DNA of 62,449 bases from IMG/VR virus record IMGVR_UViG_3300034166_000053, positions 1-62,449 of that record; one strand, written 5' to 3'. Within the stretch, counting starts at the first letter, position 1. The number at the start of each line of letters is the position of its first letter. This stretch comes from a virus. The notes under the pieces are model-generated. The model did no database searches and had not been told where the DNA came from. It saw nothing but the letters and a program-made list of their open reading frames with translations. A program made the position numbers and the translations under genes. Shown piece after piece: positions 6,320-49,200 of the stretch.

Positions 6320-6768
6320 TACACCACCGTCCAATTTGTGCCCGTGGACACCGTCACCGTCACGCCCGTTGCAATCGCCACAGGACCGGCAGACATGGCG
6401 TTATACCCATCTGGCGTGGTGTAGCTGGTCACAATGGTCTGCGGGTTGATGTAGAAACTGATGACCCCAAGGGATGCCTGACTCACTGTGCCCTGGCCCG
6501 GCGCAATCAACTGCACAATCGGGCTGGTGTAGTAGACGTAGATGTTGCCTGTTCCGCTGGGCGGCGCAGATGTAAACGTGATGGTCTGGCCGCTGATGGT
6601 GTAGGCACTGCCTGGGTTCTGCGGCACGTTCTCAATGACAACCTGCACACCAAAGACCGACCCAACCGGGCGCGACAGCGTAAACGCCGTGGTGGTCCCG
6701 TCGCCGTTGAAGTAGTCAACAGCAGGAACGAATCCTTGCGTGGTGTAGGTGTTGCCAATAAAAGCCAT
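6319..6768 (-). CDS. MAFIGN-type fibre attachment/spacer protein
   Basis: The 149-residue product matches the first 120 residues of the fibre encoded at 3694-4632. Shared features are MA[FY]IGN, a GDGTTTAFTLSRPVGS-type beta repeat, YTISGQTITFTSAPPSGTGN and an I-x-V-x-Y ending. Proteins of this type form the virion-proximal part of fibres in many environmental phages. Its stop overlaps the start of copy 5 of the AWVNF family, so attachment domain and tip domain are encoded next to each other here. Confidence 0.7.
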   Translation of the reverse strand: MAFIGNTYTTQGFVPAVDYFNGDGTTTAFTLSRPVGSVFGVQVVIENVPQNPGSAYTISGQTITFTSAPPSGTGNIYVYYTSPIVQLIAPGQGTVSQASLGVISFYINPQTIVTSYTTPDGYNAMSAGPVAIATGVTVTVSTGTNWTVV

Positions 6769-6769
6769 C

Positions 6770-7093
6770 TCAGACCGCCGTCAAAACCGAAACAACCACA
6801 TCCGCAGAGCTTGCGGCGCTGGTCAATACCTTCAGGGCATCAGAGGCAATCAGCACCACCCGATTGCCACCAATCACCTCCAGCGAACCGCCGACAGGAA
6901 TCGTGGCCGCCTTGACCAAATAATAGTCTGCGGCAGAGCGGGTGAAGTACACATCGGTGGTGATTGGCGATGTTGTCGTGTTGGCCACCACCAAGCTGGT
7001 GATGGCAATGGTTCCGCTGGAGACGGTTGTAAGCGTAGACGCCGATGTGCCGACGTTCCTTGCCACATAAGAAGTGTTTGCGTATGTAGGCAT
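6770..7093 (-). CDS. Small beta-rich virion protein
   Basis: The 107-residue product begins MPTYANTSYVARNVGTSAST and is beta-rich with no Cys. It contains VYFTRSAADYYLVKAATIPV and GNRVVLIASDALKVLTSAAS segments. This looks like a small immunoglobulin-like or jelly-roll virion decoration protein. It is placed 1 bp from the next gene in the appendage operon. Function inferred from context only. Confidence 0.65.
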   Translation of the reverse strand: MPTYANTSYVARNVGTSASTLTTVSSGTIAITSLVVANTTTSPITTDVYFTRSAADYYLVKAATIPVGGSLEVIGGNRVVLIASDALKVLTSAASSADVVVSVLTAV

Positions 7094-7094
7094 A

Positions 7095-8177
7095 TCAACT
7101 CATCATTGTTGCTAAAAAGAGGGCTTCGTCAGTTGTTGCAAATGACGCTGGTGATGATGCCCACCCAGTCCCTGTGGATGTCAGAAGATTACCCGCCGTG
7201 CCGGGTGAAGTCAAACCCGTACCGCCCGCCGCAGCAGGCAAAGTGCCAGCGGTCAATGCCGAGGCGCTGGTTGAGTACAGGGCATAGTTTGCCGCCGTGA
7301 ATGTGGTCAGGCCGGTGCCGCCATACCCAGATTGGATCGTGCCGCCTTGCCAAGTGCCGCCAGAGACGATCGCAGAACCAAGATTGAAAGCATTTGTACC
7401 AAACGTCACGCCCTCTGGCAGATAGGAGTGAAGGTCCCAAGTGCCACCCGTCGTGCTGTTGTCAGTCAAAAACACTGCGCCTGCACCGCCCGAGGGAATG
7501 GTGCCAATCGTGGCAGTGGCGTAGTCCGTGATGGTCAGAGTGCTCGTGGCGAGGTTGTTAAACACAAACGCCACACCCGTCGTCAGAGTGGTGGCGTCAG
7601 GCAGTGCATACGTCTGCCCGCCCGTCCCAACAAGCGTGTGGATGTAACTGGAAGCCGCCGTCAGGGTTGTAGTTCCACCTGCTGCGGTTGTGTTGGTGTT
7701 GGCCTGATTGACCCGGTTGACCGTGATGTTGGAGTTGGCGTCCCGCAGCACCACCGAGTTGGCCCCGGAGGAAGATGTGACTCCCGTACCGCCGTACGCC
7801 ACCCCAATGGTTGAGCCTTGCCATGTGCCAGACGCCACCGTGCCCAGGGCCGAGACGTTGCCGCTTCCATCTAGATTGACCGACTTACCCGACGGGTAGG
7901 TCACAAAGACGTTGACCGTGCCGGAGAAGGTGACGGCGCTGCCTGTGTTGCTGGACGCATAGATCGTCGTGCGCGTCAGCGTGGGTCCCGTGGTCGAATA
8001 CGTGCCAAGGCCCACCTCCCACTGACCCGTCGTATCCGTAGCCGAGTAGTAGGTGGTGTTGGTGTCGCCAATGACAGCGAACGTCTGAAAGCCTAAAACT
8101 GCGCCCGTAAGCGTGAAGCTGACAGTCGTATTCGCCGTGGCCGTTTCTTGGACACGGTTTGCAAGGACCAGAGGCAT
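7095..8177 (-). CDS. Tail fibre protein, 360 residues
   Basis: The product begins MPLVLANRVQETATANTTVS and is rich in Thr, Ser, Gly and Val. Phrases such as GTWQGSTIGVAYGGTGVTSS and the later GTWQGGTIQSGYGGTGLTTF recur twice. These (G-T-W-Q-G-S-T-I, Y-G-G-T-G-[VL]-T) are typical of phage fibre shafts and stacked beta proteins. The N-terminal VGLGTYSTTGPTLTRTTIYA block is also a common fibre N-terminus. It is likely a main tail fibre or side spike without visible catalytic residues. Confidence 0.8.
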   Translation of the reverse strand: MPLVLANRVQETATANTTVSFTLTGAVLGFQTFAVIGDTNTTYYSATDTTGQWEVGLGTYSTTGPTLTRTTIYASSNTGSAVTFSGTVNVFVTYPSGKSVNLDGSGNVSALGTVASGTWQGSTIGVAYGGTGVTSSSGANSVVLRDANSNITVNRVNQANTNTTAAGGTTTLTAASSYIHTLVGTGGQTYALPDATTLTTGVAFVFNNLATSTLTITDYATATIGTIPSGGAGAVFLTDNSTTGGTWDLHSYLPEGVTFGTNAFNLGSAIVSGGTWQGGTIQSGYGGTGLTTFTAANYALYSTSASALTAGTLPAAAGGTGLTSPGTAGNLLTSTGTGWASSPASFATTDEALFLATMMS

Positions 8178-21552: not shown

Positions 21553-23073
21553 TTAGTAATACGCGGCTTTCTTGCGATACTGTCGCAAGAAATTGTCTTC
21601 CGGCTCGTCAGTCGGAAGGCGGATGAACCCACCCTGCCTAAATCTTAACAGTGCAAGGGTCGTAGAGTCCACCAAGTCGTCGTTGGCTCCAGAGGGAAAG
21701 TCGTTGCACTCCTCCATGACCTCTTTGGCCCACCGCCTGTCGGGTGCAAACACCACGCCACCTTGAAACAGTGACGACACCGCGTTGACCCGAGCGATCT
21801 TGTCCTGGCCTTTGCCCGGCGTGAACTCCGCCACGGGTATGCCCATACGCCGAAACTCTTGATAGAGCACTGAGCCAGATGATTTCTTCTCGACCATGAA
21901 CGAGTCAGGCTCCCACTCCTGATACTCGCGCAGCACCAACGCCTTTAGCTCTGGATACTCCATCCGTTTCTTGATGGCGTTGAGCAAAATGATGGCAAAG
22001 TTGTTCGTTTCCTCGTTATAGAACACACCCCAGACGGTAAGTGCGTTATAGTCAGACCTGTTATTGGCCTCCTGCGCAGCATCCAGACTCATAATGGTGA
22101 ACTCGCACGGCGGAGGGTCATCCTTTTCCCAAATTTGCCACCACTCGCGTTTGATCAGCGCACCTTCTTCTGAAGTGGGCTTTTGCAGGTACTGAGCGTT
22201 CCAATACCGGATGTCCATCGCCGCTTTCTTGCCCAGCAACTCATTGACATCCCAAAAGTCAGGCCACAGAGCCTCGCCGTCGTCCTTGATGGCCGGAAAC
22301 TCGATCACCTCCCACTGATCGACCCCCTGTTCACGCTCCATCTGGTTCACGACCATGCCCGTGAGGTCCAGTTTGGACCACCGAGTCATCACAATAATGA
22401 TCGCACCGCCCGGCATAAGGCGCTGAAGAGGGCCAGACTGGAACCACTCCCAAGCAGGAAGAAAAACATCCGGTCGTCCGGTTTTTGCTTCTTGTTCAGA
22501 GTGAGGATCGTCAATAATGAAAAGATCAGCGCCCCGACCAGCGAGAGCACCTCCAACACCAATAGCGAAGTACTCACCATTAAAGTTTGTTCCCCATCGT
22601 GAGGCCGATTTTGAGTCCGCCTGAAGCTCAACCTGCGGGAAAATGTCCTTGTAGGTGTCCGCACCGACCAGATTTCGTACCCGCCGACCGAAGTTGACCG
22701 CCAAATCAGAGGTGTGGGAGGCCATGATGACCTTCTTCTGAGGATATTTCCCCAGAAACCACGCCGGAGCGAGGTACGAGATCAATTCTGACTTGCCATG
22801 ACGCGGCGCGATGTTCACTATCACGCGCTTTTTCTCACCTTTGGCAATGGCCTCAAAGACCTCGATCAGTTTTAGGTGGTGTGGGCCGACTTTGTAACCC
22901 GGATAGACGTGTTTGACGAAGTCCAAGAAGGAATCTTTGCCGATGACCTGCGTCATCTGGGTCTGATACTCCTTCATTAGCTCCAACACCCGACGTTTTT
23001 GCTTGTCAGGCATCGTCGGCAGAGCCTGCCGGAGCTTAAAAAGCTGGTCTGCGGTCAGTTTAGGCGCGGTCAT
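21553..23073 (-). CDS. terL: Terminase large subunit
   Basis: The 506-residue product has Walker A APRHGKSE (residues 89-96), Walker B DLFIIDDP (about 183-190), an MTRWSKLDLTGMVV motif-III-like region, and a C-terminal nuclease domain. There SLDAAQEANNRSDYNALTVW provides the first acidic residue and CNDFPSGANDDLVDSTTLAL the last. It is the ATP-driven DNA packaging motor and genome-cutting nuclease. It overlaps the upstream small-subunit-like gene by 14 bp. Confidence 0.93.
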   Translation of the reverse strand: MTAPKLTADQLFKLRQALPTMPDKQKRRVLELMKEYQTQMTQVIGKDSFLDFVKHVYPGYKVGPHHLKLIEVFEAIAKGEKKRVIVNIAPRHGKSELISYLAPAWFLGKYPQKKVIMASHTSDLAVNFGRRVRNLVGADTYKDIFPQVELQADSKSASRWGTNFNGEYFAIGVGGALAGRGADLFIIDDPHSEQEAKTGRPDVFLPAWEWFQSGPLQRLMPGGAIIIVMTRWSKLDLTGMVVNQMEREQGVDQWEVIEFPAIKDDGEALWPDFWDVNELLGKKAAMDIRYWNAQYLQKPTSEEGALIKREWWQIWEKDDPPPCEFTIMSLDAAQEANNRSDYNALTVWGVFYNEETNNFAIILLNAIKKRMEYPELKALVLREYQEWEPDSFMVEKKSSGSVLYQEFRRMGIPVAEFTPGKGQDKIARVNAVSSLFQGGVVFAPDRRWAKEVMEECNDFPSGANDDLVDSTTLALLRFRQGGFIRLPTDEPEDNFLRQYRKKAAYY

Positions 23074-23632
23074 GCTTGTTTTGATTGACCACCATGCGTG
23101 CTTCCACGTCGATTACCTTGTCTTCAAGGTTTTCCAAGGTCTGGAGCAACTCTTTTTCGACCTCTTCAATCGACATGTGCTTGTGAGTGACCTCACTGCG
23201 CTTCTTAAAGGCATCAACTCCGTCGATTTCCCCCAAGTTTCGCAGTGCCGTGATCCTTGCTTTGGGGTCCTTGGCATTCTCAATCTCGGCAACGAGCTTG
23301 TTGACCACGTACATCTTTAGGTCAGACAACTCTTCCACGATAGAGACGTTCATCTGCGCAACCATGCCCGCCAGCATGGCCAGAGTCTCGTTGGGATACT
23401 TGGAGTAATCAGGCCGGTACTGCGGGTTGGCCATCATTTCCCGCGCTAGAGCCTTGGCCTCGTCAGCATTTTCCTGAGTTGGCAAGAGTGCTTGGCCCGT
23501 CAAGTCTGACATGAGCTTGATGACGTTGGCCCGCATCTGCAATTCTTGCTCAGCAGTGAGGTCAGGAAACGCCTCTTTGGCGTTGTCTGGCAGAGGAATG
23601 TTTTCCTCGATGGGCGGTACCAATGTCGTCAT
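23060..23632 (-). CDS. Putative terminase small subunit
   Basis: The 190-residue acidic and helical product lies immediately upstream of terL with a 14-bp overlap, the usual place of the small subunit. It begins MTTLVPPIEENIPLPDNAKE, has a helical core (EELSDLKMYVVNKLVAEIEN) and ends in a long coiled coil (residues 150-185). No clear N-terminal HTH is visible, so DNA recognition is not demonstrated from sequence. It is the first gene of the leftward late operon. Confidence 0.6.
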   Translation of the reverse strand: MTTLVPPIEENIPLPDNAKEAFPDLTAEQELQMRANVIKLMSDLTGQALLPTQENADEAKALAREMMANPQYRPDYSKYPNETLAMLAGMVAQMNVSIVEELSDLKMYVVNKLVAEIENAKDPKARITALRNLGEIDGVDAFKKRSEVTHKHMSIEEVEKELLQTLENLEDKVIDVEARMVVNQNKHDRA

Positions 23633-23668
23633 GTCAGAGAAGGAATCTCCGTTGGGTGTTGCATCGGG

Positions 23669-23696
23669 AATGTATCACAGAAATATATTTTTGCAA
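23669..23696 (-). promoter_or_regulatory. Candidate promoter for the leftward late operon
   Basis: On the minus strand, TTGCAA (23696-23691), a 16-nt AT-rich spacer and TACATT (23674-23669) lie about 35 bp before the first gene. The match to sigma70 is 4 of 6 at each box, so this is moderate evidence only. Confidence 0.45.
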
Positions 23697-23822
23697 CAAG
23701 GGGAGGTTGGGACTCCTACCGGGGGGTATTTCTGTAGGGGACTGTAAGAGATATGGCTGGGAAAAGTCATGGGGGAGGGGGTACTCTGTTGGAGTTTGGC
23801 GGAGTGTTTTGTCGGAAAACCT

Positions 23823-23990
23823 AGCATTCATGCGGGTTGCCGGGCGGTTTTTCCCCACATTTATTTTTACTTGGGGCTTGACATATAGAGGGGGAGTTCG
23901 GCAGGGTGTTTTGCCAAAACCGGCAATAACTAATTGGCCATCTAGAGTACCTGATGGGCCGCTAGGCCGCATGAATGCTGGGTTTTTTCT
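23823..23990 (+). ncRNA. Candidate structured non-coding RNA
   Basis: AGCATTCATGCGG (23823-23835) pairs perfectly with CCGCATGAATGCT (23967-23979), and the second arm is followed at once by GGGTTTTTTCTTC, like an intrinsic terminator. Inside are smaller dyads: GTTTTG-C-CAAAAC and a GGCCATC ... GATGGGCC hairpin. The plus-strand RNA would be about 165 nt. No promoter is clear, so transcription and strand are inferred. Confidence 0.35.
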
Positions 23991-24041
23991 TCGCCGTCTG
24001 AGACTGAATCCGGGTGTAACTAGGCTTATAGAGGGGGAGTT
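23884..24041. repeat. Direct repeat TATAGAGGGGGAGTT, two copies
   Basis: Identical 15-mers at 23884-23898 and 24027-24041, 143 bp apart, inside the divergent junction. They contain a G5 run and might be protein binding sites or parts of a G-quadruplex-forming tract. Confidence 0.6.
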
Positions 24042-24147
24042 TGGGGATGTGCGGGGTTATTTGTGTGTATCAGGGGGTATGGGGGCGAGGGAGGGACCCG
24101 TTTGGCGGCTTGGGGGGTGGGGGTGGGGGCGCGTCCCCCTCTAGAAT

Positions 24148-24177
24148 TTGCAATACCCGTACCCCTTCAGCTATACA
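24148..24177 (+). promoter_or_regulatory. Candidate early promoter upstream of the first rightward gene
   Basis: TTGCAA (24148-24153), 18-nt spacer and TATACA (24172-24177), about 40 bp before the ATG at 24217. Match is 4 of 6 at each box. The -35 hexamer is the same as that of the late-arm candidate promoter. Confidence 0.45.
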
Positions 24178-24184
24178 TATATCA

Positions 24185-24198
24185 CTGCGATGTCGCAG
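24185..24198 (+). promoter_or_regulatory. Short palindrome CTGCGA-TG-TCGCAG
   Basis: A 6-bp inverted repeat with a 2-bp centre lies just downstream of the candidate promoter and would be around the transcription start or early leader. It could be an operator or a leader hairpin; only its symmetry is shown. Confidence 0.4.
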
Positions 24199-24216
24199 GG
24201 TTCCACGGAGTACATC

Positions 24217-24378
24217 ATGTACACAGTATCAGTTCAGTGGGAAGACAAGCGGATCACCCACACCGCATGGACCAAGGCGTCAGCCCTCGGATGGCTGGCC
24301 TGCTACCGACACCCCCAGGTGTTCGCTAAGGTGACCGACCTGTTCGGTCGTCGCGTAGCAGTCAAGTACCGCCGCTAA
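24217..24378 (+). CDS. Small phage protein, 53 residues (first rightward gene)
   Basis: Start at the ATG at 24217 with GGAG 6 nt upstream; earlier in-frame ATGs lack a ribosome site. The product begins MYTVSVQWEDKRITHTAWTK and ends KVTDLFGRRVAVKYRR, so it is small and basic with a mixed alpha/beta look. Being the first gene of the early arm, it may act on the host, but nothing in the sequence shows how. Confidence 0.6.
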   Translation: MYTVSVQWEDKRITHTAWTKASALGWLACYRHPQVFAKVTDLFGRRVAVKYRR

Positions 24379-24384
24379 TCAACC

Positions 24385-24400
24385 GGGGGCTTCGGCCCCC
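24385..24400 (+). terminator. UUCG-tetraloop hairpin between the first two early genes
   Basis: GGGGGC-TTCG-GCCCCC, a 6-bp GC stem with the very stable UUCG tetraloop. No U-tract follows, so it is more likely an mRNA stabiliser or attenuator than a full terminator. Confidence 0.6.
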
Positions 24401-24418
24401 ACACTTCTGGAGGATGCT

Positions 24419-24604
24419 ATGACAACAGGACAGATCAACATCTGGCGACGCCATGTGTACGCAGCCATGCTGGACGCGCTGATACAGCGTCGCCCTTTTA
24501 GTAGGATGCCCAATAACCTCAAGGCGATCAAGGAGCAAGTAGCTCGGGCAACGTTCTGCGCCAAGTATGACGGCGACGACTACAGCCGCTACCCACGCCG
24601 CTGA
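24419..24604 (+). CDS. Small basic phage protein, 61 residues
   Basis: GGAGG stands 5 nt before the ATG. The product begins MTTGQINIWRRHVYAAMLDA, is Arg-rich and helical, and ends DDYSRYPRR. Like the previous gene it is followed by a UUCG hairpin, so each small gene forms a gene-plus-hairpin unit. Function unknown. Confidence 0.6.
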   Translation: MTTGQINIWRRHVYAAMLDALIQRRPFSRMPNNLKAIKEQVARATFCAKYDGDDYSRYPRR

Positions 24605-24609
24605 TCATC

Positions 24610-24626
24610 GGGGCTTCGGCCCCTTT
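24610..24626 (+). terminator. UUCG-tetraloop hairpin with short T-tract
   Basis: GGGGC-TTCG-GCCCC followed by TTT (24624-24626). It probably ends or attenuates transcription from the first early promoter before the flanked cassette. Confidence 0.65.
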
Positions 24627-24710
24627 GATACCAGTTATATGTCCCCGCGCGCGGCGGGCGCGTGCGCGTAGGCGCGGCCCCTATTTAGCGTTCCATCCCC
24701 CCGTGGAACT
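24623..24710 (+). repeat. Cassette-flanking repeat, left copy
   Basis: About 90 bp beginning TTTGATACCAGTTATATGTC, then a CGCG-rich run, then TTAGC and the 7-4-7 hairpin element. The same order of blocks recurs at 25471-25563 with substitutions and small indels. Together the copies flank the gene at 24805-25419. Confidence 0.7.
24691..24708 (+). promoter_or_regulatory. 7-4-7 hairpin element, copy 1
   Basis: TTCCATC-CCCC-CCGTGGAA is the degenerate copy of the TTCCACG-N4-CGTGGAA element (the innermost pair is C/C and one pair is a wobble). It is preceded by TTAGCG and lies 97 bp before the next start codon. Confidence 0.6.
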
Positions 24711-24804
24711 TTACTTAATCACCCCACGCATGGCATAAAGATATTGTCAGCAAGCAATCACGCCCTGACGTTTCATCAATCGTTCATTTTATGGAGATAT
24801 GAAC

Positions 24805-25419
24805 ATGTCCGAAAAAACCTTCAAGTCCCTCAAGGACAGCGCATTTCAACAAGCCGGTGCAGCACAAACCCTTGAGGATGTGGCGCGCTACGTTCTCGGG
24901 CTGGTTCCGGGTTTCCCCAAGGATATCCCAAGCGAAACACGGGATGAGCTTTACGATGGTTATCGTATGAAGTTTGACACCCTCAAGCCAGCGCAGACTT
25001 ATGCGGTCATAAACGATCACATTGTCCTCGCGACTGATGAGCACAAGAAAGCGAAGAACGTCGAGAAAATCGATATCGGTGTGGCTTATGCTTTTTCCTA
25101 TTCAAGTCAGGAATTCGGCAAGCTTGCCAATACCCGGCCCGAGCTTCACAAGCTTTTGAAGGACGTCAGGGATACATGCAACACCTATTGTTCCAACCGA
25201 CTTGGGGACTTGAAGCGCGCAGCGACAAAAATCCTGAACAATGGCAAGGATCGACAGCGCGGCGCAAACAAGGACTTCGCTGAGTTTGTCGAAGCGTGGT
25301 TCAAGGATACCGCGCCCGACCGGCTCAAGTCAGCGTCAGCGCGTGGTGACAGTAGCGCAGACAGCAAGCGATTCAATGAAGCGAAAGTAGCGTTCATGGT
25401 TAAGTGGAACGCTAGCTGA
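24805..25419 (+). CDS. Unknown 204-residue protein in a repeat-flanked cassette
   Basis: Start at the ATG at 24805, 8 nt after GGAG; an ATG two codons earlier would leave only 2 nt. The product begins MSEKTFKSLKDSAFQQAGAA and is hydrophilic, Lys/Asp-rich and mostly helical, with no signal peptide or membrane segment. No family recognised. The gene has its own strong terminator and is bracketed by two copies of a 90-bp repeat, an arrangement like a moron cassette. It may be a recently acquired accessory gene such as a host-takeover or anti-defence factor; that is speculation. Confidence 0.7.
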   Translation: MSEKTFKSLKDSAFQQAGAAQTLEDVARYVLGLVPGFPKDIPSETRDELYDGYRMKFDTLKPAQTYAVINDHIVLATDEHKKAKNVEKIDIGVAYAFSYSSQEFGKLANTRPELHKLLKDVRDTCNTYCSNRLGDLKRAATKILNNGKDRQRGANKDFAEFVEAWFKDTAPDRLKSASARGDSSADSKRFNEAKVAFMVKWNAS

Positions 25420-25430
25420 TACTGACCCCA

Positions 25431-25461
25431 ACCCGACCGGCTTGCCGGTCGGGTTTTTTTG
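25431..25461 (+). terminator. Strong Rho-independent terminator
   Basis: A perfect 10-bp stem ACCCGACCGG / CCGGTCGGGT with the loop CTTG (25431-25454) is followed by seven T. It closes the 24805-25419 cassette. Confidence 0.9.
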
Positions 25462-25470
25462 CGCCTGCTA

Positions 25471-25563
25471 TTTTGATACCAGTGATATGTCTTCGCGCGC
25501 GAGGCGTGTGCGCGTGACGTGGCGAACAAGACTCTTAATTAGCGTTCCACGCCCACGTGGAAT
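25471..25563 (+). repeat. Cassette-flanking repeat, right copy
   Basis: Begins TTTGATACCAGTGATATGTC, then a CGCGCGCG-rich run, then TTAGCG and a 7-4-7 hairpin. It matches the left copy at 24623-24710 block for block. Confidence 0.7.
25545..25562 (+). promoter_or_regulatory. 7-4-7 hairpin element, copy 2
   Basis: TTCCACG-CCCA-CGTGGAA, perfect 7-bp arms with a 4-nt loop, preceded by TTAGCG. It lies just before the iteron region. Confidence 0.75.
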
Positions 25564-25589
25564 CAGTTTGACCCCACATCCTATCGTTA

Positions 25590-25693
25590 AAGTTTATCAG
25601 ATTTTATCTTTTGGCCCTGTCTCCATCGCCTAAGTTTATCAGATTTTATCTCCAAGACCCGTTTCCATCGCCTAAGTTTATCAGATTTTATCT
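25590..25693 (+). repeat. Three iterons with exact 42-bp period
   Basis: The 20-mer AAGTTTATCAGATTTTATCT occurs at 25590-25609, 25632-25651 and 25674-25693 without any mismatch. The 22-bp spacers are related (both end TCCATCGCCT). 42 bp is four helical turns, so the cores face the same side of the DNA. Confidence 0.9.
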
Positions 25694-25724
25694 TTTTAAT
25701 ACGATGGTATTCGATTTTGGCCTC

Positions 25725-25745
25725 GTTCTATAGGTAAATTAGAAC
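25725..25745. repeat. GTTCTA-N9-TAGAAC dyad, copy A
   Basis: A 21-bp dyad in the origin-like region. Its 9-bp centre is TAGGTAAAT. It recurs at 26035-26055 with one substitution, and single GTTCTA or TAGAAC boxes lie nearby at 25795, 25803, 25878, 26059 and 26068. Confidence 0.7.
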
Positions 25746-26034
25746 AAGAACAAAATCGTTGGAAAAAAGCCTTATAAATCAACGAGTTACGGCGTTCTAT
25801 TTGTTCTACTGTTTTTGGGATAGGTCGGCAGCGTGATCGTTTTTGCACGAGCGAGGGCTTCGGGGCCAGTGCATTCCGTTCTACACCACGCAAAACACCG
25901 CAGGGGGGTCCTCTTTTCTTAATTTTCACCAGAACACAGAACATATACATAATAATATTTAATTTATTTATATATATCTATATCAAAACACACCAAAACC
26001 TAAACCTTCGACCTACATTTCAGTCCATTTCTCG

Positions 26035-26055
26035 GTTCTATATGTAAATTAGAAC
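26035..26055. repeat. GTTCTA-N9-TAGAAC dyad, copy B
   Basis: Same dyad as at 25725-25745 but with the centre TATGTAAAT. It is followed by two further TAGAAC boxes spaced 9 bp apart. Copy A and B bracket the AT-rich stretch. Confidence 0.7.
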
Positions 26056-26125
26056 ACGTAGAACATGTAGAACAAGACTCCCCCCGCCCCCACAGCACCC
26101 CTGCCAAAGAAACCTGCGCAAGTCC

Positions 26126-26154
26126 TTGACTTATAAGTCAAGTTAGGTTACAAT
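26126..26154 (+). promoter_or_regulatory. Strong sigma70 promoter P1 with embedded palindrome
   Basis: TTGACT (26126-26131), 17-nt spacer, TACAAT (26149-26154). The -35 box lies in a perfect 18-bp palindrome CTTGACTTATAAGTCAAG (26125-26142), the likely operator. A 7-4-7 hairpin begins exactly 72 bp after the first base of the -35 box. Confidence 0.82.
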
Positions 26155-26197
26155 AGAAGCAAGTCGAGAGGCGTCCGCTGCATCGGCTTATCTAGCG

Positions 26198-26215
26198 TTC
26201 CACGACCACGTGGAA
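26198..26215 (+). promoter_or_regulatory. 7-4-7 hairpin element, copy 3
   Basis: TTCCACG-ACCA-CGTGGAA with perfect 7-bp arms, preceded by CTAGCG. It would lie about 37 nt into the transcript from promoter P1 and 40 bp before the start codon at 26255. Confidence 0.8.
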
Positions 26216-26254
26216 TTCATCAACCAAGCATCAACACTATCGTTGGAGAATCTC

Positions 26255-28205: not shown

Positions 28206-29339
28206 ATGTCTAAAGTTCAATTCGTCAACACCGTCACCATCAAAGAGTTGCGTACTCTGATTCCACTTATCAGTGGAGAGCTAACTCCGGTCATTCAGTC
28301 CGAGCCGGGCTGTGGCAAGACGTCTCTCTTGGCGATGATCGCTGCTGACAATGGCGACAAGTGGCGCTCCCCTGCTGACGGCACGAGCATCGAGGGTGAC
28401 AAGTACGACTACATCTACGTCGACTGCCCCGTCAAGGACATGTCGGACATCGGTATGACTATTCCCAACCATGCCACCAAGCAGTTGGAGTACTACGTCT
28501 CGACACTGTTCAATCTATCTGACCCCAAGCCCAAGTGCATCCTGCTCGACGAGTTCATGAAGTCACCCAAGCTGCTTCAGGTCATCTTCACCCGACTGAT
28601 GCTTGAGCGTATGGCTGGCGATGTGCCTCTGCCTGTGGGTGCTGACGGCAGGAAGTCTATGGTCTTTGCAACATCTAACAACGCATCGGACGGCGTGGGC
28701 GACAACATGCTGGCTCATGCGGGCAATCGCGTGTGTATCGTGCGCATGGCAAAGCCTACGCCTGATGAGTGGTTGGCATGGGCATCGGAGAACGGTATCT
28801 CTCGTGTCATCCGTGCGTGGGTCTCTATGTTCCCTCGTTGCTTGGCATCGTACATCGAAGGCGATGAGCAGAAGGACAACCCGTACATCTTCAAGCCATC
28901 AATGACGAGTCTCTCGTTTGTCTCTCCCCGCTCGTTGGCGAAGGCAGACGTGATCGTTCGTAACCGTGACACGCTGGGCGAGAACGCTACGAAGGTGGCG
29001 CTGGCTGGCACTATCGGTGCGGCAGCAGCCGGGGACATGGCGGCATTCCTCTCGCTTGAGAAGTCTCTGACTGATGTGAAGGACATCATCAAGACGCCGG
29101 AGTCCATTGAGATTCCCAAGGACGTCAGCGCGCAGTTGATGATTATGTTTCAGGCAGTAGATGTGCTGACGACACAGGACGAGTTGACCAAGTTCATGCT
29201 GTTCGTCGAGCGTATTCCCTCTCACGAGGTTCAGGCTGTGTTCTTCACCATGATGATGCGCAATCCCAAGGCGCTGCGCTTGGCGCGGAACAACCAGAAG
29301 ATTGCTGAGTGGGCCAAGAACAACCACGAGATGTTCTGA
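28206..29339 (+). CDS. MoxR/CobS-type AAA+ ATPase
   Basis: The 377-residue product has Walker A EPGCGKTS (residues 33-40), Walker B KCILLDEF (about 118-125), a sensor-1-like MVFATSNNASDG region and a LERIPS-type C-terminal segment (lid helices). This is the AAA_5/MoxR class that acts as a chaperone or inserts metal ions together with a VWA partner. It is the middle member of the DUF3150-AAA-VWA trio. ATP-dependent remodelling is expected; the client is unknown. Confidence 0.85.
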   Translation: MSKVQFVNTVTIKELRTLIPLISGELTPVIQSEPGCGKTSLLAMIAADNGDKWRSPADGTSIEGDKYDYIYVDCPVKDMSDIGMTIPNHATKQLEYYVSTLFNLSDPKPKCILLDEFMKSPKLLQVIFTRLMLERMAGDVPLPVGADGRKSMVFATSNNASDGVGDNMLAHAGNRVCIVRMAKPTPDEWLAWASENGISRVIRAWVSMFPRCLASYIEGDEQKDNPYIFKPSMTSLSFVSPRSLAKADVIVRNRDTLGENATKVALAGTIGAAAAGDMAAFLSLEKSLTDVKDIIKTPESIEIPKDVSAQLMIMFQAVDVLTTQDELTKFMLFVERIPSHEVQAVFFTMMMRNPKALRLARNNQKIAEWAKNNHEMF

Positions 29340-29345
29340 GTATCG

Positions 29346-29363
29346 CCCCACGGTCACGTGGGG
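29346..29363 (+). promoter_or_regulatory. 7-4-7 hairpin element, copy 5
   Basis: CCCCACG-GTCA-CGTGGGG: perfect 7-bp arms in which both outer bases changed together relative to the other copies (TT/AA to CC/GG), a compensatory pattern. It lies 7 bp after the AAA gene stop and 28 bp before the next start, with no promoter nearby. Confidence 0.8.
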
Positions 29364-36380: not shown

Positions 36381-36565
36381 AAGAAGACATCATCAAGATG
36401 GCGCGGGAGGCTGGGTTCGCTGACGGCGTAGCAGAGATCGTAGGGCTTGAGGGTTTTGCCCGTTTCGCCGCCCTTGTCGCCAACCGATGCGCTGAGATCG
36501 CATACGAAGCCGAGCCGTTCCATTCTGCGGATTTGATCCGCAAAGCATTCGGGGTAAAAGAATGA
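36377..36565 (+). CDS. Small conserved phage protein, 62 residues
   Basis: ATGA-coupled on both sides. The product begins MKEDIIKMAREAGFADGVAE and continues with LEGFARFAALVANRCAEIAY. The M-A-R-E-A-G-F and L-x-R-F-A-A-L-V-A patterns are widespread in phage early regions. Function unknown. Confidence 0.68.
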   Translation: MKEDIIKMAREAGFADGVAEIVGLEGFARFAALVANRCAEIAYEAEPFHSADLIRKAFGVKE

Positions 36566-38433
36566 GACTGATAACTCTTGACTTTGAGACGTTCTACGAC
36601 AACAAGATCAAGCTGGGCTTCAAGCACCAGACGACCGAAGAGTACGTGCGTGACTCAAAGTTTGAAGTCATAGGCGTCGTTGTTAAGGTTGACGACGGCG
36701 AATGTACTTGGGTCTCAGGCACACACGATGAAATCAAAAAGTTTTTGCTGTCGCTTGAGCTAGATAGGGCGGCCGTACTTTGTCACAACACGCTGTTCGA
36801 CGGTTGCATTCTTAGCTGGCACTACGGCATCAAGCCCGCATTCTTTCTCGACACGTTAAGCATGGCGCGGGCGCTCCACGGCGTGGATGCTGGTGGTTCG
36901 CTGGCTAAGTTGGCAGAGCGGTACAAGCTGGGCGTCAAAGGCGATGAGGTGGTAGCTGCCGAAGGCAAGCGGCGCGAAGACTTCAGTCCCGAAGAACTGC
37001 GGCGCTATGGTGAATACTGCAAGAACGATGTGGACCTGACGTTTAGGCTCTTCCAAATTCTCGCGAGCGCGACCCCGGACGACGAGTTTGAACTGATCGA
37101 CATGACGCTGCGCATGTTCACTGAGCCGGTCTTTGAAGTTGATGATGCGCTCCTACAAAATCGCCTTGCTGAAGTGCAACAGGAAAAGAGCGACCTGCTC
37201 AGGGGCCTGATGGAAAAACTTGGATGCCCCACAGAAGAAGCTGTGCGCAAGAAGCTGGCAAGCAACAAACAGTTCGCCATGCTGCTTGAAGAAAACAACG
37301 TCACGCCGCCGATGAAGGTAAGCAAGACCACGGGCAAGGACACGTTTGCACTGGCAAAGAACGATGAGGGGTTCTTGGCGCTGACGGAACACGAGGACCC
37401 GTTCATACAGCAACTGTGCGCGATACGTCTGGGCACGAAGTCCACGATTGAAGAGTCTCGCATCAAACGGTTCATCGACGTTGGCAAACGCAACGAGGGC
37501 AAGCTGCCCATCCCCTTGAAGTACTACGGCGCTCACACCGGACGCTGGGCTGGCATGGACAAGGTGAACTTCCAGAACCTGCCGAGCCGCGACAAGAAAA
37601 AGAAGGCGCTCAAGAACGCAGTGTTAGCACCGGACGGGCACATCGTCATCAACTGCGACTCCTCCCAAATCGAGGCGCGTATCCTTGTCTGGCTGGCGGG
37701 ACAGCATGATGTGGTTGAGCAGTTCCGCAAGGGTGAGGACGTGTACTCCATCTTTGCCACGGACATCTACAACCGCCCCATCTCTAAGGCCAACCCTGTG
37801 GAACGCTTCGTGGGCAAGACCTGCATCTTGGGTCTGGGCTACGGGACTGGGGCGTTAAAACTTCAGCACACGCTCAAGACTACGCCGCCGGGCGCCATCG
37901 TCGATGAGGAAGAGGCCAAGCGCATCGTGGGCGTGTACCGGGACAAGAACCATGCGGTGATCGACCTGTGGCGCGAGGGCGATGAGGTCATCAGGACTAT
38001 GGCTGATTGGGGCAACACCAAGCCCTTCTACTACGGGCTGAACAAGTGCCTAGTGGTGGACAAGGAAGGCATCCGTCTTCCTAATGGGCTGTACATCCGA
38101 TACCCCGGCTTGAGGCTTGACACATCGGAAGCCAAGAGCAAGTACGTGTACTCCAGCCGCAAAGGTCCCGTGCCACTGTGGGGTGGATCGCTGGTTGAGA
38201 ACGTGGTGCAAGGCTTGGCGCGGGTCGTCGTTGGGCAGCAGATGCTCCAGATCAAGAAGCGGTATCCGGTCAAGCTGACCGTCCATGACGCCGCCGTCAT
38301 CGTGGCTCCAGAGGCGCAAAAGGACGAGGCGCTTGAGTACATCATCGAGTGCATGTCCGAGCCACCCGAGTGGGCCAAGGGTTTACCCGTAGCCTGCGAA
38401 GCAAAGTTTGCATCCTCCTACGGAGAGTGCTGA
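36562..38433 (+). CDS. DNA polymerase, family A, with 3'-5' exonuclease domain
   Basis: The 623-residue product starts with an exonuclease domain (LDFETFYD, residues 5-12; further acidic motif CKNDVDLTFRLFQ). Polymerase motifs follow: VNFQNLPSRD, motif A NCDSSQIEAR (about 362-371), motif B RFVGKTCILGLGYG (about 415-428) and motif C LTVHDAAVIV (about 571-580). Motif C has HDA where most Pol I enzymes have HDE; the catalytic Asp is kept. It lacks a 5'-3' exonuclease domain. It is the replicative polymerase of the phage. Confidence 0.93.
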   Translation: MRLITLDFETFYDNKIKLGFKHQTTEEYVRDSKFEVIGVVVKVDDGECTWVSGTHDEIKKFLLSLELDRAAVLCHNTLFDGCILSWHYGIKPAFFLDTLSMARALHGVDAGGSLAKLAERYKLGVKGDEVVAAEGKRREDFSPEELRRYGEYCKNDVDLTFRLFQILASATPDDEFELIDMTLRMFTEPVFEVDDALLQNRLAEVQQEKSDLLRGLMEKLGCPTEEAVRKKLASNKQFAMLLEENNVTPPMKVSKTTGKDTFALAKNDEGFLALTEHEDPFIQQLCAIRLGTKSTIEESRIKRFIDVGKRNEGKLPIPLKYYGAHTGRWAGMDKVNFQNLPSRDKKKKALKNAVLAPDGHIVINCDSSQIEARILVWLAGQHDVVEQFRKGEDVYSIFATDIYNRPISKANPVERFVGKTCILGLGYGTGALKLQHTLKTTPPGAIVDEEEAKRIVGVYRDKNHAVIDLWREGDEVIRTMADWGNTKPFYYGLNKCLVVDKEGIRLPNGLYIRYPGLRLDTSEAKSKYVYSSRKGPVPLWGGSLVENVVQGLARVVVGQQMLQIKKRYPVKLTVHDAAVIVAPEAQKDEALEYIIECMSEPPEWAKGLPVACEAKFASSYGEC

Positions 38434-42851: not shown

Positions 42852-43163
42852 ATGTCACGACCATACAGCGAAGCCTTTTTGATTGAGTTGCACAAAGCCA
42901 ATCCCAACAAGGCTGGCATTGCGCTGGCGCTTGCTTGCGTGAAAGCAAACCTTCCGGCAAAGTACGTGGCCGAAGCGCTTGAGGTGACTCGGATGACCGT
43001 CTTCAGTTGGTTTCGTGGCAAACCCATCCGTCACAATAACCTGCTGAAGATCGAAACCTTCACTGATCTGGTGGAAAGCGACACCGCAAAAGGCATCTTG
43101 CCAGCCAAGAACACTGCGGCAGCAAGAGCCTACATAGAGGAGATGATCGGACGCAAAATTTAA
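42852..43163 (+). CDS. Helix-turn-helix DNA-binding protein
   Basis: The 103-residue product contains PAKYVAEALEVTRMTVFSWF followed by RGKPIRHNN (about residues 36-64), a clear HTH with the recognition helix at VTRMTVFSWFRG. The rest is helical. It is the only obvious small stand-alone HTH in the early arm and might bind the CTTGAC-N6-GTCAAG palindromes at P1 and P2, though that is speculation. Confidence 0.72.
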   Translation: MSRPYSEAFLIELHKANPNKAGIALALACVKANLPAKYVAEALEVTRMTVFSWFRGKPIRHNNLLKIETFTDLVESDTAKGILPAKNTAAARAYIEEMIGRKI

Positions 43164-43233: not shown

Positions 43234-46077
43234 ATGTTAAAACAATTCTACGAGAAAGCATTACCAAGTCAGGGTGTCTATTGTGTCGGTGAACTTGATC
43301 GAACCAAGCCAAAAGGCGAAGACTGGAGAAATCATTTCGCCCGCACACTTGACGAGGTGTTCGACAAAGTCGATGCCGTCAAAGCAAGACACCATGATGT
43401 GTACGTTGCGATGGGGACATTTAACGGCTTCAGCCGTCAAGCAAAAGAGTGTGTCTATTTCAGTTCGCTGTTCATAGATTTGGACGTAGGAGAGGGCAAG
43501 CCTTACGCCACCAAAGAGCATGCACTCAGCGCGCTGGACAAGTTCGTAACTGAGCAAGAGCTTCCACCACCCAACCGTGTTGACTCCGGTAACGGCATCC
43601 ATGCGTACTGGCTGTTTGGCGAAGACATATCAGCCAAAGAGTTTCTGCCGTATGCCAAGCTGTGGAAGAAGCTGTGCCTGAAAAACTTCACGATTGACCC
43701 GCTGGCTACCCCGGCCAACCTAGCGCAAGTCATGCGCTGGGCAGATTCAAAGAACTACAGATACGAGCCGTCCTCGGACACCAAGTTCTTGGATGACGAG
43801 GTGTATGAGTACGACTTCGGCATGTTCAAAGAGTTCCTTGGGGAACCTGAAGGCGAAGTAGAGGACGTGCTGTCCAGCGTTACGAAGGGCTTGGACGATG
43901 ACACCAAGGCGATGCTCAAGCTGGACAACTTCGCCAAGACATTCGATGTGCTGGCCCAGAAAAGTTTGGACGGGACGGGCTGCAACCAGATCGCCAACAT
44001 CTTGGTCAATGCGGCAACACTTGAGGAACCCCTGTGGTGGGCGGGGCTGTCGATAGCAAAGTTCTGTGACGATGGAGCCACCGCCATCCACAAGATGTCT
44101 GAAGACCACCCCGAGTACAACCATGACGACACAGAAGAAAAAGCAAGTCGCTTTCCTGCTCCGAGGACATGCGAGTGGTTCCTCAGCAACTACCCCAGCC
44201 ACTGTGAGGGATGCCAACACAAGGGAAAGATCACAACCCCCATCGTCCTTGCCAAAGAGTTCAAGCCAGCCGCCTCGACAAATAAAGAGGAATCAATTCG
44301 GGCGCAGGAGGGTTCCCAAGCTATTCCTGATTTCCCGGAGTTTCTTTTCCCCTTCATGAGAGGGCAGAAAGGCGGCATCTACTACCAGCCCCCGACCAAG
44401 TACAACAAGCAAGGCGAGAAGATCGAGCAAGACCCCATCCTTGTGCTGCCGCATGAGTTCTTTCCGGTGCGCAGGATGTTCAGCAAACATGATGGCGAGT
44501 GCCTGCTGATGCGCTTGCAACTGCCGCGAGACCCCGTCCGGGACATCCTCGTTCCCATGAAACACGTGTACGCTCTGGACAGCTTCAAGGCCCTCATGTC
44601 GTCCAATGGCGTATTCGCCTCAGCAGAAAAACTGCCACACCTTATGAACTATGTGATCAAGTGGGGTCAGTACATGCAACTGACCGACAAGGCCGAGATT
44701 ATGCGGATGCAGATGGGTTGGACCGAGGACATCACCGACCCGGAGTGGGACAAGCGCAGCTTCGTGATTGGCAAGAAAGAAGTGCTGCACACAGGAGAGA
44801 TAGTTGATGCACCGGCGTCACCCTTTGTGCGTGGCATCGCCAAGTTCCTCGTCCCCAACGGCACGTACGAAAGATGGCGTGAGTCAGCAGACTACTTGGA
44901 CAAGCCGGGCTTTGAACTCCATGCGTTCGCCATGCTGTGCGGTATGGCCTCTCCGTACATGACCTATACGTCAACTTCCGGGGTCACAGTTTGCTTGCTT
45001 GGCAAGTCAGGCACAGCCAAGACCGGAGCAATGTACGCAGGTTTGAGCGTCTGGGGGCATCCGAAAGACCTGAGCATCCTTGAGTCCACGGACAACGGCA
45101 TGGTGGGTCGCTTCCTCGGGCTGCACAACATCCCGCTGGGCGTCGATGAAATATCGAACAAGGACCCGAAGATTCTGGCCCAACTGATCCACAAAATCTC
45201 CACCGGCAAAGCCAAGATCAAGATGCAAGCATCAGTCAACGCTGAGCGCGAATACGAGATGAGCGCATCCTTGATCGCACTGATGACCACCAACCAGTCC
45301 GCATACGGGAAGCTGGAGATTGTCAAGGCCAACCCAGACGGAGAGGCAGCGCGTTTGATCGAGATGTTGGTCAAGCGCCCCGCGCTGTTGGAGGGAGATG
45401 GCGGCACCGGCCTTGGACGGCACATCTTCGACGCCTTCCGTTTGAACTTCGGACATGCTGGTCCGCGCTTGATTCAGGCAGGGCTGCGCCTTGGTGACAA
45501 CTACATCAGAGAGCGCATCCAGTACTGGGACGAACACTTCGTCAAGGGCTTTGGGGAAGACGTGACCTACCGCTTCTATCAGAACCTGATGAGCGTGGTC
45601 GGCATGGTCGGTGAGATGGCGCACAACGAGAACATCATCAATCTGGATGTGAACCGGGTGTTCAACGAAGCGATGCTGGAGATGATTACCATCCGCGACA
45701 AAGTGGTCAAGGTCAACCGCACCGACTATCCGTCTGTCTTGGGCGACTACGTCAACAAGAACTTGGGCAACATCTTGGTCATCAAGGACAACAAGGTGGC
45801 TATGGAGCCGCGCGGCCAGATCGTAGGGCGCATCGTCAGTGACGAGAACCTCATGCAAATCTCCAAGACCGACTTCAAGAAGTACCTTGCAGAGCGGCAG
45901 ATCAGTTCTCGTGAGTTTGAGTTTGAAATGCGGGAGAAGAACCTGCTGATCGACGACAAGAAGGGTCGTCTGACCACCGGATGGAAGTCAGCCGTACACG
46001 TAGACCCAGCGTATTTGTACTGGTTCAGAACCGAGTTGCCAGATGATTTCTTTGCTAACACCGACTCAAATAACTGA
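43234..46077 (+). CDS. Primase-helicase (AEP-like N-terminus, DUF927-like helicase C-terminus)
   Basis: The 947-residue product has an N-terminal archaeo-eukaryotic primase-like region (LFIDLDVGEGKPYATKEHAL around residue 80 and RVDSGNGIHAYWLFGED around 120). A Cys-rich segment (CEWFLSNYPSHCEGCQHKG, about 311-329) may bind zinc. The C-terminal ATPase has Walker A LGKSGTAKTGAM (about 587-598), a GVDEISNKD Walker-B-like motif and a LMTTNQS sensor, as in DUF927 helicases. It is expected to prime and unwind DNA for the family A polymerase. Confidence 0.82.
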   Translation: MLKQFYEKALPSQGVYCVGELDRTKPKGEDWRNHFARTLDEVFDKVDAVKARHHDVYVAMGTFNGFSRQAKECVYFSSLFIDLDVGEGKPYATKEHALSALDKFVTEQELPPPNRVDSGNGIHAYWLFGEDISAKEFLPYAKLWKKLCLKNFTIDPLATPANLAQVMRWADSKNYRYEPSSDTKFLDDEVYEYDFGMFKEFLGEPEGEVEDVLSSVTKGLDDDTKAMLKLDNFAKTFDVLAQKSLDGTGCNQIANILVNAATLEEPLWWAGLSIAKFCDDGATAIHKMSEDHPEYNHDDTEEKASRFPAPRTCEWFLSNYPSHCEGCQHKGKITTPIVLAKEFKPAASTNKEESIRAQEGSQAIPDFPEFLFPFMRGQKGGIYYQPPTKYNKQGEKIEQDPILVLPHEFFPVRRMFSKHDGECLLMRLQLPRDPVRDILVPMKHVYALDSFKALMSSNGVFASAEKLPHLMNYVIKWGQYMQLTDKAEIMRMQMGWTEDITDPEWDKRSFVIGKKEVLHTGEIVDAPASPFVRGIAKFLVPNGTYERWRESADYLDKPGFELHAFAMLCGMASPYMTYTSTSGVTVCLLGKSGTAKTGAMYAGLSVWGHPKDLSILESTDNGMVGRFLGLHNIPLGVDEISNKDPKILAQLIHKISTGKAKIKMQASVNAEREYEMSASLIALMTTNQSAYGKLEIVKANPDGEAARLIEMLVKRPALLEGDGGTGLGRHIFDAFRLNFGHAGPRLIQAGLRLGDNYIRERIQYWDEHFVKGFGEDVTYRFYQNLMSVVGMVGEMAHNENIINLDVNRVFNEAMLEMITIRDKVVKVNRTDYPSVLGDYVNKNLGNILVIKDNKVAMEPRGQIVGRIVSDENLMQISKTDFKKYLAERQISSREFEFEMREKNLLIDDKKGRLTTGWKSAVHVDPAYLYWFRTELPDDFFANTDSNN

Positions 46078-46261
46078 ACCGGAGTGGGTCTTCCCGTTCA
46101 CAGGCATGGAGGTGGGGGACAGCTTTTTCGTCCCCACACTGCGCCTAGCCGAGATGATCTACGCCATCGACAGTGGAGCCAAACGCGCCAAGATCAAAGT
46201 CAAGTGCTACATCACAACGAAGGATGACCACATTGGCGTAAGAGCTTGGCGTACCGCTTAA
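46043..46261 (+). CDS. Small conserved phage protein, 72 residues
   Basis: Starts inside the end of the primase-helicase gene (35-bp overlap). The product begins MISLLTPTQITEPEWVFPFT and includes GMEVGDSFFVPTLRLAEMIY and IKVKCYITTKDDHIGVRAW. This short beta-rich protein is seen at the end of early regions in related phages. Its TAA overlaps the stop of the converging giant gene. Confidence 0.65.
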   Translation: MISLLTPTQITEPEWVFPFTGMEVGDSFFVPTLRLAEMIYAIDSGAKRAKIKVKCYITTKDDHIGVRAWRTA

Positions 46262-49200
46262 CGCTCCATGCCCAGGGCTTTGAAGTCCTGAACCATCTGG
46301 TACTTGAGCACGTTCTGCTGCATGGTCGAGATGCGCAGCAGTTCGTCTCGGGTCTTTGGTGAGATATCAGGCATGGTGCGGATTTCCCTTGCCTCTGCCC
46401 GCAGTTTGTTCAGTTCGCCCTGACGGCTGCGGTATGCATCAACCAGCATTCCGTGCAGAGGGTTCTTTGCCTCGTACTCAGCCAGCCGCACGGGGTCACG
46501 CTGGTCCAGAGTGTTCATGCGCTTGTCGATCTCAAGGATGCGCTTTTCTATCTCGCCGTATTCGCGGGAATCCACGTTGGTTTTGGCACCGAAGAAGCTG
46601 CCAATCAGCGGCACATCGGTCTTGATGTTGAACGTCTTTTCGCCTCGGTCGAGATTGACCCACGAGTAGAGAACTTCACCGACTTTTGCCAGACCATCCA
46701 GATAGCTGTTGGCAAAGAAGTAGAGCGAATTTGGAGAAACATCAACCGACCCAAGCGATGCATTGAAGAAGTACTCAGCGGCGTCCTTGTAAATCTCAGG
46801 AATTCGATCCCCACCAGTAAAGGCATCACCCATGCGGCGAGTCGCTGCACTGTTGATGGTTTGTCCAATACCGTTGGTATTCATCATGAACTCCAAGATA
46901 GGGCGAATTGTGGTGGGCGTTACTGTATCAAGCGCCCACTTTCCAGCAGACTCAGGCGACTCAGTCGGCGGAATCTTAGACAACGGCAAAGGCAAGAACG
47001 AGTCTGCAAACGATGTAAACATGTTGCCAAACATTTCTTTTGCCGAAGATGCCCCGACAGTGAACCCAGCGAACTGAGCGCCGATGGCTGCAAACGCACC
47101 AAGACCGAAGCCCCAAGGTATCTGGAACACAACGTCACGCCCGATACCTGCTTTCTCCGACACCTCATTTGGAATATGGAAGCGAGCAAAGCGAGTCCAC
47201 TGCCCCATGTTGTCATTCATGACGGCGTTACGTTTCCAGTCATCATCGGGGGCCATCAGCGCCGACATATAGAAAAGCGCCATACCCATGCCCCCAAGGG
47301 CGGTGACCATAATTCGTGCGTTGCGTTGCTGTTGTGCGTAGTTGGCTTTGAATTCTTCCAAAGCTTTTGGGTCATTCCGTATGACTGCTGGCAGATCGTT
47401 AACCGCCATACTTAGTGGGCGGACAGCAGGCAAGGTAGCTTCAGCCGCACGCATAGCACCCGTCGCAGAAGCACGGATGAACATGTAGAGCGCACCCATC
47501 TCTCGCGCATACTCACCAGCCTTTTCAAAGTTGGCGAGGTTCTTAGTCCACGCAGCAGCCTCAGTCCCTGCGGCTCGGTTTGCCGCCGCTTCTGTCATTC
47601 CTTTGGCGATGTTCTTCTTCACAAGTTCTTCTTTGCGCAGCGCAAAGGCAGCGGTGCGGCTTGTGAATTCAAACATGTCGTTCCATACATCGACGAACTT
47701 ATTGAATTTCTCGACGGTGTCTATGATCCGACGTTTGCCAAGACCGGTGTTGAGGTCATGCAGGCTGGACTTGAGGGAGAAACTTTCCAAGTAAGTGGTC
47801 TTGCCGCCGCGACGCAGATACTCCACCATGTCACGCACAAAGGGGTCTTTGCTGGCAAGATCAGCCAGCATCCGCTGACTGACAGGGTCACCCTTCTCAT
47901 GCAAGATAGCCACTTCCATAGCCTTGCCAAGACCGTTCTTAACCACCATTGCACTGATGGTCTTGATGTACTGCGCGGACTTCATTGGTCCAAGCTCTGC
48001 ACCCATAGTCCATGCGTTGGTCAGCGAGTCACGTACAAAGTTGAGCGGCGCAAAGTTGTAGTTGTACCGCGTGTGCATGGCACCAAAGAAGCCTGTCACG
48101 GAGTTTGCCATGTCAAGCACAGGCGATGCATCGCGAAACGAATAACGCAGCGCGTTAAGAATCTTGGGGTCTTTGATTTGGACAATGTCTATCGACCCGT
48201 CCGGGTTGTAGACAAAGATATTGCTGCCACCCTTAAACTTAGTCAGATCAACAGTGTTGCGTTCCGCAAATTCGATATGACCAATAACTTTAGCGTTTTC
48301 AATAACCCCAGTACCGGTCGGATTAAGTTTGTTTGGCTCTACTGCATTCTTGATTGATTGCATGTAGTTGCGACGGCCAGCCCGACCAGCAGCGCGATAA
48401 GCATCACTCATCATCTGCAACAGAGGGTTGTCAGCCGGACTAAAGCGGCCATCCGCAGCGTACTCAATCTCTTGCAGTTCCTTGCCTGTTGCCTTGGTGT
48501 CAAAGGAAACGAATTCGTCGGCCACAGAATGTTTTGACACCCCTTTGAACGGCAGGTAATGCTGGTAGTTGTACATGCCAACCAGATTGGACACGGGAAA
48601 CGACCAGTAGTTGCCAATCTTATTCAGATCAGCCGTGACCTTGGTGATTTCTCGTGCTTCAGCAAAAATCTTGTCCAGCAACTGTCTTTGCTCATCAGGA
48701 AGCGCTTGGTACTCTTGCATGCGCAAGTTGACTTCGTCTTGGTTAATACCCAACACGTTGTACAGCGGCGAGTCCTTGTTGATGTCCATAACCTTTACAC
48801 GCTTACGCATGCGGTCATCCTTGATGCGCGGACTATCTCCAGCAGGGTCTGCGTGGTTGTTGGCGAGGCTGGTAAGTTCGTCCCAAAGCTGCCGCTGCTG
48901 AGCTTCAGTCAATTCAACGCGATCTTTGATACCCGGCTTGCCAGTGCGGGGGTCGCCAAGAATATCAATACGACGCTGTGCTGCACTGATCTTCTTGCCG
49001 TTGTGCGTCAAGTTTTGGTCTGTGCTCAACGGTACAGAGGTAACCCACTTCACGTTGCGACGCTCAGGCTCGTGAAACATCTCTGAGAACATGTGCAGAT
49101 CAATCAACACGTCATCAAGCTTTTGCTTGGTCATCTTGACGTAATCACTGACTGACTGCTTGATGTTGTCCATCGGCACGCGAAGATAGTGATTGACAAA

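Follow-up and report, generated by a model that had tools for sequence, protein, structure and literature searches.

The non-coding stretch at 25.59-26.13 kb of a 62,449-base virus record, the whole of which was analysed and is called the window here, is a strong candidate for a replication origin, and its candidate initiator can be named. Judged by its sequence, the stretch is very probably the start site of phage DNA copying. We consider it likely that this is the phage origin, where the C-terminal domain of the phage-encoded PrimPol-DUF927 helicase binds GTTCTA boxes, an A/T-rich stretch is opened and the helicase is loaded. A first-pass annotation had proposed an iteron-type origin at this place, and that proposal stands as the best explanation, except that the role of conserved iterons falls to the GTTCTA boxes and not to the 42-bp repeats found beside them.

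The origin candidate and its surroundings

The window encodes a portal, a large terminase, head proteins and large ejection-type proteins, and its replication-type genes are an A-family DNA polymerase (36562-38433), an SNF2-type helicase and a primase-helicase. The nearest annotated kin of the polymerase are in Pseudomonas KPP25-like phages and Rhizobium phages, at ~36% identity. No DNA similarity of the window to known phages was found, and Rfam and tRNA searches of it gave no matches.

The candidate is a non-coding gap near the left end of a rightward gene block that includes the replication genes. It runs from the intrinsic terminator of the upstream 206-aa gene (25430-25455, plus strand; an 11-bp stem then a T run) to a sigma70-like promoter, TTGACT-N17-TACAAT (26126-26154, plus strand), which has a similar counterpart at the equivalent place in relatives and whose -35 box is overlapped by the palindrome TTGACTTATAAGTCAA (26126-26141). 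Its earlier description as the only large non-coding region is doubtful, the stretch at 23633-24798 being likewise without a convincing gene. The cumulative GC-skew minimum near 27 kb is compatible with an origin at 25.59-26.13 kb, and is not counted as evidence because skew follows gene strand.

GTTCTA, read on either strand, occurs 26 times in the window, nine of them inside 25701-26080, where 0.10-0.21 were expected and none of 20,000 simulated sequences reached nine. Every other 380-nt stretch of the window holds at most two boxes, and there are none between 36.6 and 49.4 kb. A repeat search places a first dyad, GTTCTA-N9-TAGAAC, at 25725-25745. After it come a plus-strand tandem pair, GTTCTA N3 GTTCTA (25794-25808), which in relatives is GTTCTAatGTTCTA with an 8-bp period, a single plus-strand GTTCTA within the spacer (25878-25883) and a degenerate inverted tandem pair on the minus strand, CAGAAC A CAGAAC (25930-25942), at the place of relatives' TAGAACatTAGAAC. 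The inverted pair directly precedes the A/T-rich stretch, a candidate unwinding element (25943-25985; 93% A/T) that contains the window's most A/T-rich 40-mers (0.95, versus 0.75 for the best outside the region). A second dyad of the same form, from the same search (26035-26055), and two more minus-strand TAGAAC boxes with a 9-bp period (26059-26073) complete the array. The window's inner pairs are irregular (9- and 7-bp periods, CAGAAC), and a strict array pattern misses it. Two features of iteron origins are thus present, short repeats above chance and an A/T-rich unwinding element beside them, and the seven or more boxes, the two dyads and the nearly pure A/T stretch at about 25946-25985 that the first-pass annotation had listed are all real.

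The same annotation had correctly reported three identical 20-bp cores at an exact 42-bp period. The 42-bp repeats, located by repeat search, occupy 25583-25708 on the plus strand, and the core AAGTTTATCAGATTTTATCT has exactly three exact copies in the window, at 25590, 25632 and 25674. Among the relatives compared, the tripled repeat is confined to the window and the near-identical contig L162, which keeps both the three repeats and the boxes. Single copies of the core, matching 22-25 of 26 bases on either strand, are present in L085, L163, L164, L190 and L200, and none was detected in the more distant L096. The repeat was rejected as a general signature after a 17-base core scan of the collection returned one relative (L162) among 24 contigs. 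Loss of the repeats from relatives that keep the flanking genes had been named in advance as evidence against an origin; such loss is partly seen for the 42-bp repeat, but the boxes are kept throughout.

Other repeats surround the gap. Two copies of a hairpin element of one family, TTCCACG-N4-CGTGGAA, lie at 25534-25563 and 26187-26216, with similar hairpins preceding relatives' genes. Hairpins of this CCAC/GTGG kind stand ahead of genes or gene groups in the window at 24690-24709, 25545-25562, 26198-26215 and 29346-29363, and also in relatives; they are possibly phage promoter or processing elements. The hairpins, together with a 2400-aa protein (46258-53460) whose sole recognised domain is the LPD38 polyvalent-protein domain, prompted the idea of an N4-like virion RNA polymerase with hairpin promoters, which found no family support and was dropped. 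The 206-aa gene (24799-25419) is one of a family of tandem paralogues whose terminator-leader units are repeated, and L162 has an extra copy (about 6554-7157), absent from the window, that may reflect recombination between repeats.

Conservation and joint switching of the boxes

About 200 loci of relatives were collected by scanning with three genes of the window, those for the ATPase (28206-29339), the 206-aa protein and the polymerase. In about 50 relatives the layout is a dyad, a tandem pair, ~105-132 nt, an inverted tandem pair, an A/T-rich stretch and a second dyad with further boxes, followed by the promoter, and an A/T peak recurs at the equivalent place across 247 aligned arrays. The signature conserved across these comparisons is the array of GTTCTA boxes, not the 42-bp repeat. 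The boxes of each genome switch jointly among GTTCTA, GTTCCA and ATTCCA; mixed forms occur in L151, L158 and L197. Joint switching of this kind is what one would expect if a single sequence-specific protein used all the sites.

Between the facing pairs, spacer lengths group around 96, 105-107, 116-118 and 129-131 nt, which suggests helical phasing and paired initiator complexes. Across the 149 clustered arrays the preferred period is close to 11, with a phasing p-value that is not independent because they are related sequences, and the window (121 nt, irregular pairs) fits the phasing poorly. Scans of IMG/VR with the array alone returned at least 120 (GTTCCA), 61 (ATTCCA) and 59 (GTTCTA) stretches.

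The candidate initiator and its C-terminal domain

According to the first-pass annotation no obvious initiator protein was encoded, and the initiator might be an unrecognised gene or a host factor. A candidate is encoded at 43234-46077 on the plus strand: a 947-aa protein that combines a PrimPol (AEP) domain with a DUF927 MCM-like helicase, as assigned from Pfam, PDB sequence matches and model folds. The initiator is thus probably a phage gene, as one of the two suggestions had it, although an identifiable one, and not a host factor. The protein matches Pfam DUF927 (PF06048, 2.2e-15) and, among PDB sequences, SaPI Rep (8tch) and SCCmec Cch (5dgk). Its AlphaFold2 model (pLDDT 84.5) has its best fold match to Cch (Z 31.6 over 489 residues, at 16% sequence identity), followed by the SaPIbov1 replication initiator Rep (Z 27.3 over 460 residues), so that a DUF927-type MCM-like helicase core is present; both alignments run through the C-terminal domain, and the N-terminus matches PrimPol domains (Z 18.5). 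The C-terminal domain, aa 826-947 (45709-46074, plus strand), is the candidate box reader by its change with box type and its fold ranking. Modelled alone, it has SaPIbov1 Rep and Cch as its top three fold matches, at weak E values of 0.008-0.07, and TcpK of pCW3 (5vfx) ranks next, also weakly (E 0.2). In the primase domain of the window, aa 80-197 are strongly divergent from relatives: 20 of 50 sites that are otherwise invariant have changed, a pattern that resembles recombination.

Behind arrays found by the array-only scans, the helicase was present in 12 of 30 GTTCCA contigs, 18 of 30 ATTCCA contigs (in a few of them only a divergent form) and 7 of 10 further GTTCTA contigs, and in 0 of 15 control contigs picked by an unrelated DNA pattern. 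On the helicase tree box type changes ~8 times, far below shuffled values; GTTCTA arises independently repeatedly and ATTCCA twice, and both ATTCCA clades have A880, K889 and K911 in the C-terminal domain. In the cleanest case, the phage G003, GTTCCA boxes are nested inside a GTTCTA clade. Identity in the C-terminal domain is 85-93% among close phages with the same box (93% between the window and G002, 87% between G002 and G006), versus 68-71% for the box-switched G003 (68% to its sister G002), and no comparable drop was found in its other helicase domains or in about twenty other proteins. Of otherwise invariant sites, G003 has changed 9 of 52 in the C-terminal domain and 9 of 278 elsewhere (p=5e-4). 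The border used, residue 830, was chosen after data inspection, so the result was checked by a border-free scan, in which aa 818-927 stand out (p=0.007). With all deep box switches pooled, C-terminal enrichment is small (OR 1.2, p=0.026), and no single specificity residue was found to track the box over all switches. In the phages aligned, then, box type and C-terminal domain change together. The changed domain is also present in G029, a sister of G003, whose origin lies outside its contig, and the G016 contig likewise excludes its origin.

The G003 changes (841, 846, 857, 860, 861, 867, 907, 926 and 927) fall mostly in loops and strands of the model, none of them in the helix 892-901. This is a parallel, suggestive only, to TcpK, which reads tandem boxes through a beta-wing and loops (PMC6137059).

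A different protein, supplied by the host or encoded by a small phage gene not recognised so far, might instead read the origin and load the helicase indirectly. Several small operon proteins have no known function, and similar GTTCCA arrays exist in phages without a detected helicase relative: in 8 of 20 GTTCCA contigs over 40 kb no relative could be detected for the helicase, its C-terminal domain or DUF927, so the initiator is not identifiable from the array alone. These phages have either another initiator with a similar preference or a wider use of the box. Their arrays are symmetrical, in G+C-richer DNA and without an A/T-rich stretch next to them; in some the centre is TATA-rich instead, and several genomes have two arrays. 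We nevertheless regard a separate reader as unlikely for the window, given that the box-linked drop in identity is confined, among the proteins compared, to the helicase C-terminal domain, that related helicases read iterons through this domain (PMC7581432) and that a host factor would hardly track a phage's box switches. Symmetrical arrays of GTTCCA pairs in G+C-richer, helicase-less phages were seen in L321, L339, L332, L326, L355, L356, L369 and L383; in one genome (L356, L383) the terminase neighbours one array, and a TOTE-type AEP primase and an SNF2 helicase are found close to the other.

The boxes might also be operators of a phage transcription regulator, for early promoter or immunity control, with the A/T-rich stretch a mere promoter region. 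The dyads do resemble operators, the promoter and its overlapping palindrome stand just downstream and recur in relatives, two weaker matches to promoters are located within the A/T-rich stretch or next to it, and a weak regulator match was obtained for a 103-aa protein (42852-43163). Promoter-like matches in the region are no commoner than in shuffles, however, the layout of the array agrees with that of PICI origins (PMC6092414), and the box letter tracks the C-terminal domain of the replicative helicase, not the 103-aa or any other compared protein, which leaves the operator reading improbable. A role of the array in packaging (as a pac site) or as a partition-like site is very improbable: genes for TerL (21553-23073) and a possible TerS (23060-23632) lie 2-4 kb leftward, but the possible TerS has no drop in the box-switched phage (79% between G002 and G003, 78% between the window and G002), whereas the helicase C-terminal domain does.

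Comparison with known replicons

Under the preferred reading, with the stretch as an origin read by the phage's own primase-helicase, the initiator would bind the GTTCTA boxes through its C-terminal domain and its complexes would form on the box groups of opposite orientation, melt the A/T-rich DNA at 25943-25985 and lead to loading of the helicase there, perhaps as paired hexamers. The N-terminal primase domain would then prime synthesis, and the phage A-family polymerase would extend the primers.

Classical iteron plasmid origins of the RepA type combine an A/T-rich unwinding element with repeats of an initiator box next to it, as here. They differ in that the candidate initiator here is itself a helicase-primase and the boxes are in inverted groups. 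The best reading is a SaPI/PICI-like replicon, in which an A/T-rich melting site lies between two sets of iterons that a self-loading primase-helicase reads. The iterons of SaPIs are read by the C-terminal domain of the Rep helicase (PMC7581432), and PICI origins have two iteron sets either side of an A/T-rich region (PMC6092414). The window has the same arrangement of short iterons (PMC6092414, PMC7581432) and, as in the SaPIbov1 rep-ori, an initiator helicase with a homologous core and probably a homologous C-terminal domain. Unlike these helper-dependent satellites, it is a 62-kb phage genome with its own terminase, portal and head proteins; its candidate origin opens the replication operon, ~17 kb upstream of the initiator gene, whereas the SaPI origin lies directly downstream of rep; its primase is fused to the helicase; and the boxes of these phages are GTTCYA or ATTCCA with 7-9 bp periods, in inverted pairs 105-132 nt apart.

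The closest solved fold, that of the DUF927 MCM-like helicase Cch of SCCmec, is of a chain without a PrimPol domain, and no origin for Cch was found described in the literature. SaPI5-type PriRep, Cch2 and D5-like proteins (7ola) likewise are primase-helicases that act as self-loading initiators, but are of the Primase_Cterm/D5 type (PMC7581432), and the fold match to 7ola is far weaker (Z 11.5 versus 31.6 for Cch). TcpK of the pCW3 oriT, the weak match to the isolated C-terminal domain, reads short tandem boxes with a winged-helix fold (PMC6137059) that the domain may share, but unlike the window's candidate initiator is a conjugation accessory protein.

More tentatively, two MCM-like primase-helicase complexes may face each other on inverted box pairs set at whole helical turns, with box preference residing in an exchangeable C-terminal domain, and these phages would then form a natural initiator-origin series (GTTCTA, GTTCCA, ATTCCA and possibly TATGCAA in the phage Rollin). 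We found no described origin in the literature for these environmental phages, which are numerous in IMG/VR. The link between array and initiator would give a sequence rule for locating their origins and would extend the self-loading initiator of SaPI/Cch type beyond satellites and cassettes, to phages of 60 kb that carry virion genes of their own. The natural specificity switches offer a means to map the initiator's reading of its boxes, and paired loading of an MCM-like helicase at a simple bacterial origin becomes a directly testable question.

Some observations concern more distant genomes. A GTTCTA array scan of bacterial genomes returned seven MAG contigs (L491-L497), mostly Bacteroidales. 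In Rhizobium phage RHph_TM3_14A, a relative of the primase-helicase is annotated as 'putative integrase' (QIG67541.1; L603, 30240-33323), and its gene ends a syntenic replication gene block. No box array was found in TM3_14A or Rollin, both cultured relatives, by exact search for GTTCYA. In the cultured, distant Pseudomonas phage Rollin, positions 1-960 (L602) are non-coding and contain inverted groups of TATGCAA boxes next to an A/T-rich stretch, together with several AAAAGGTAG..CTACCTTTT palindromes; this region may be an origin with a different box.
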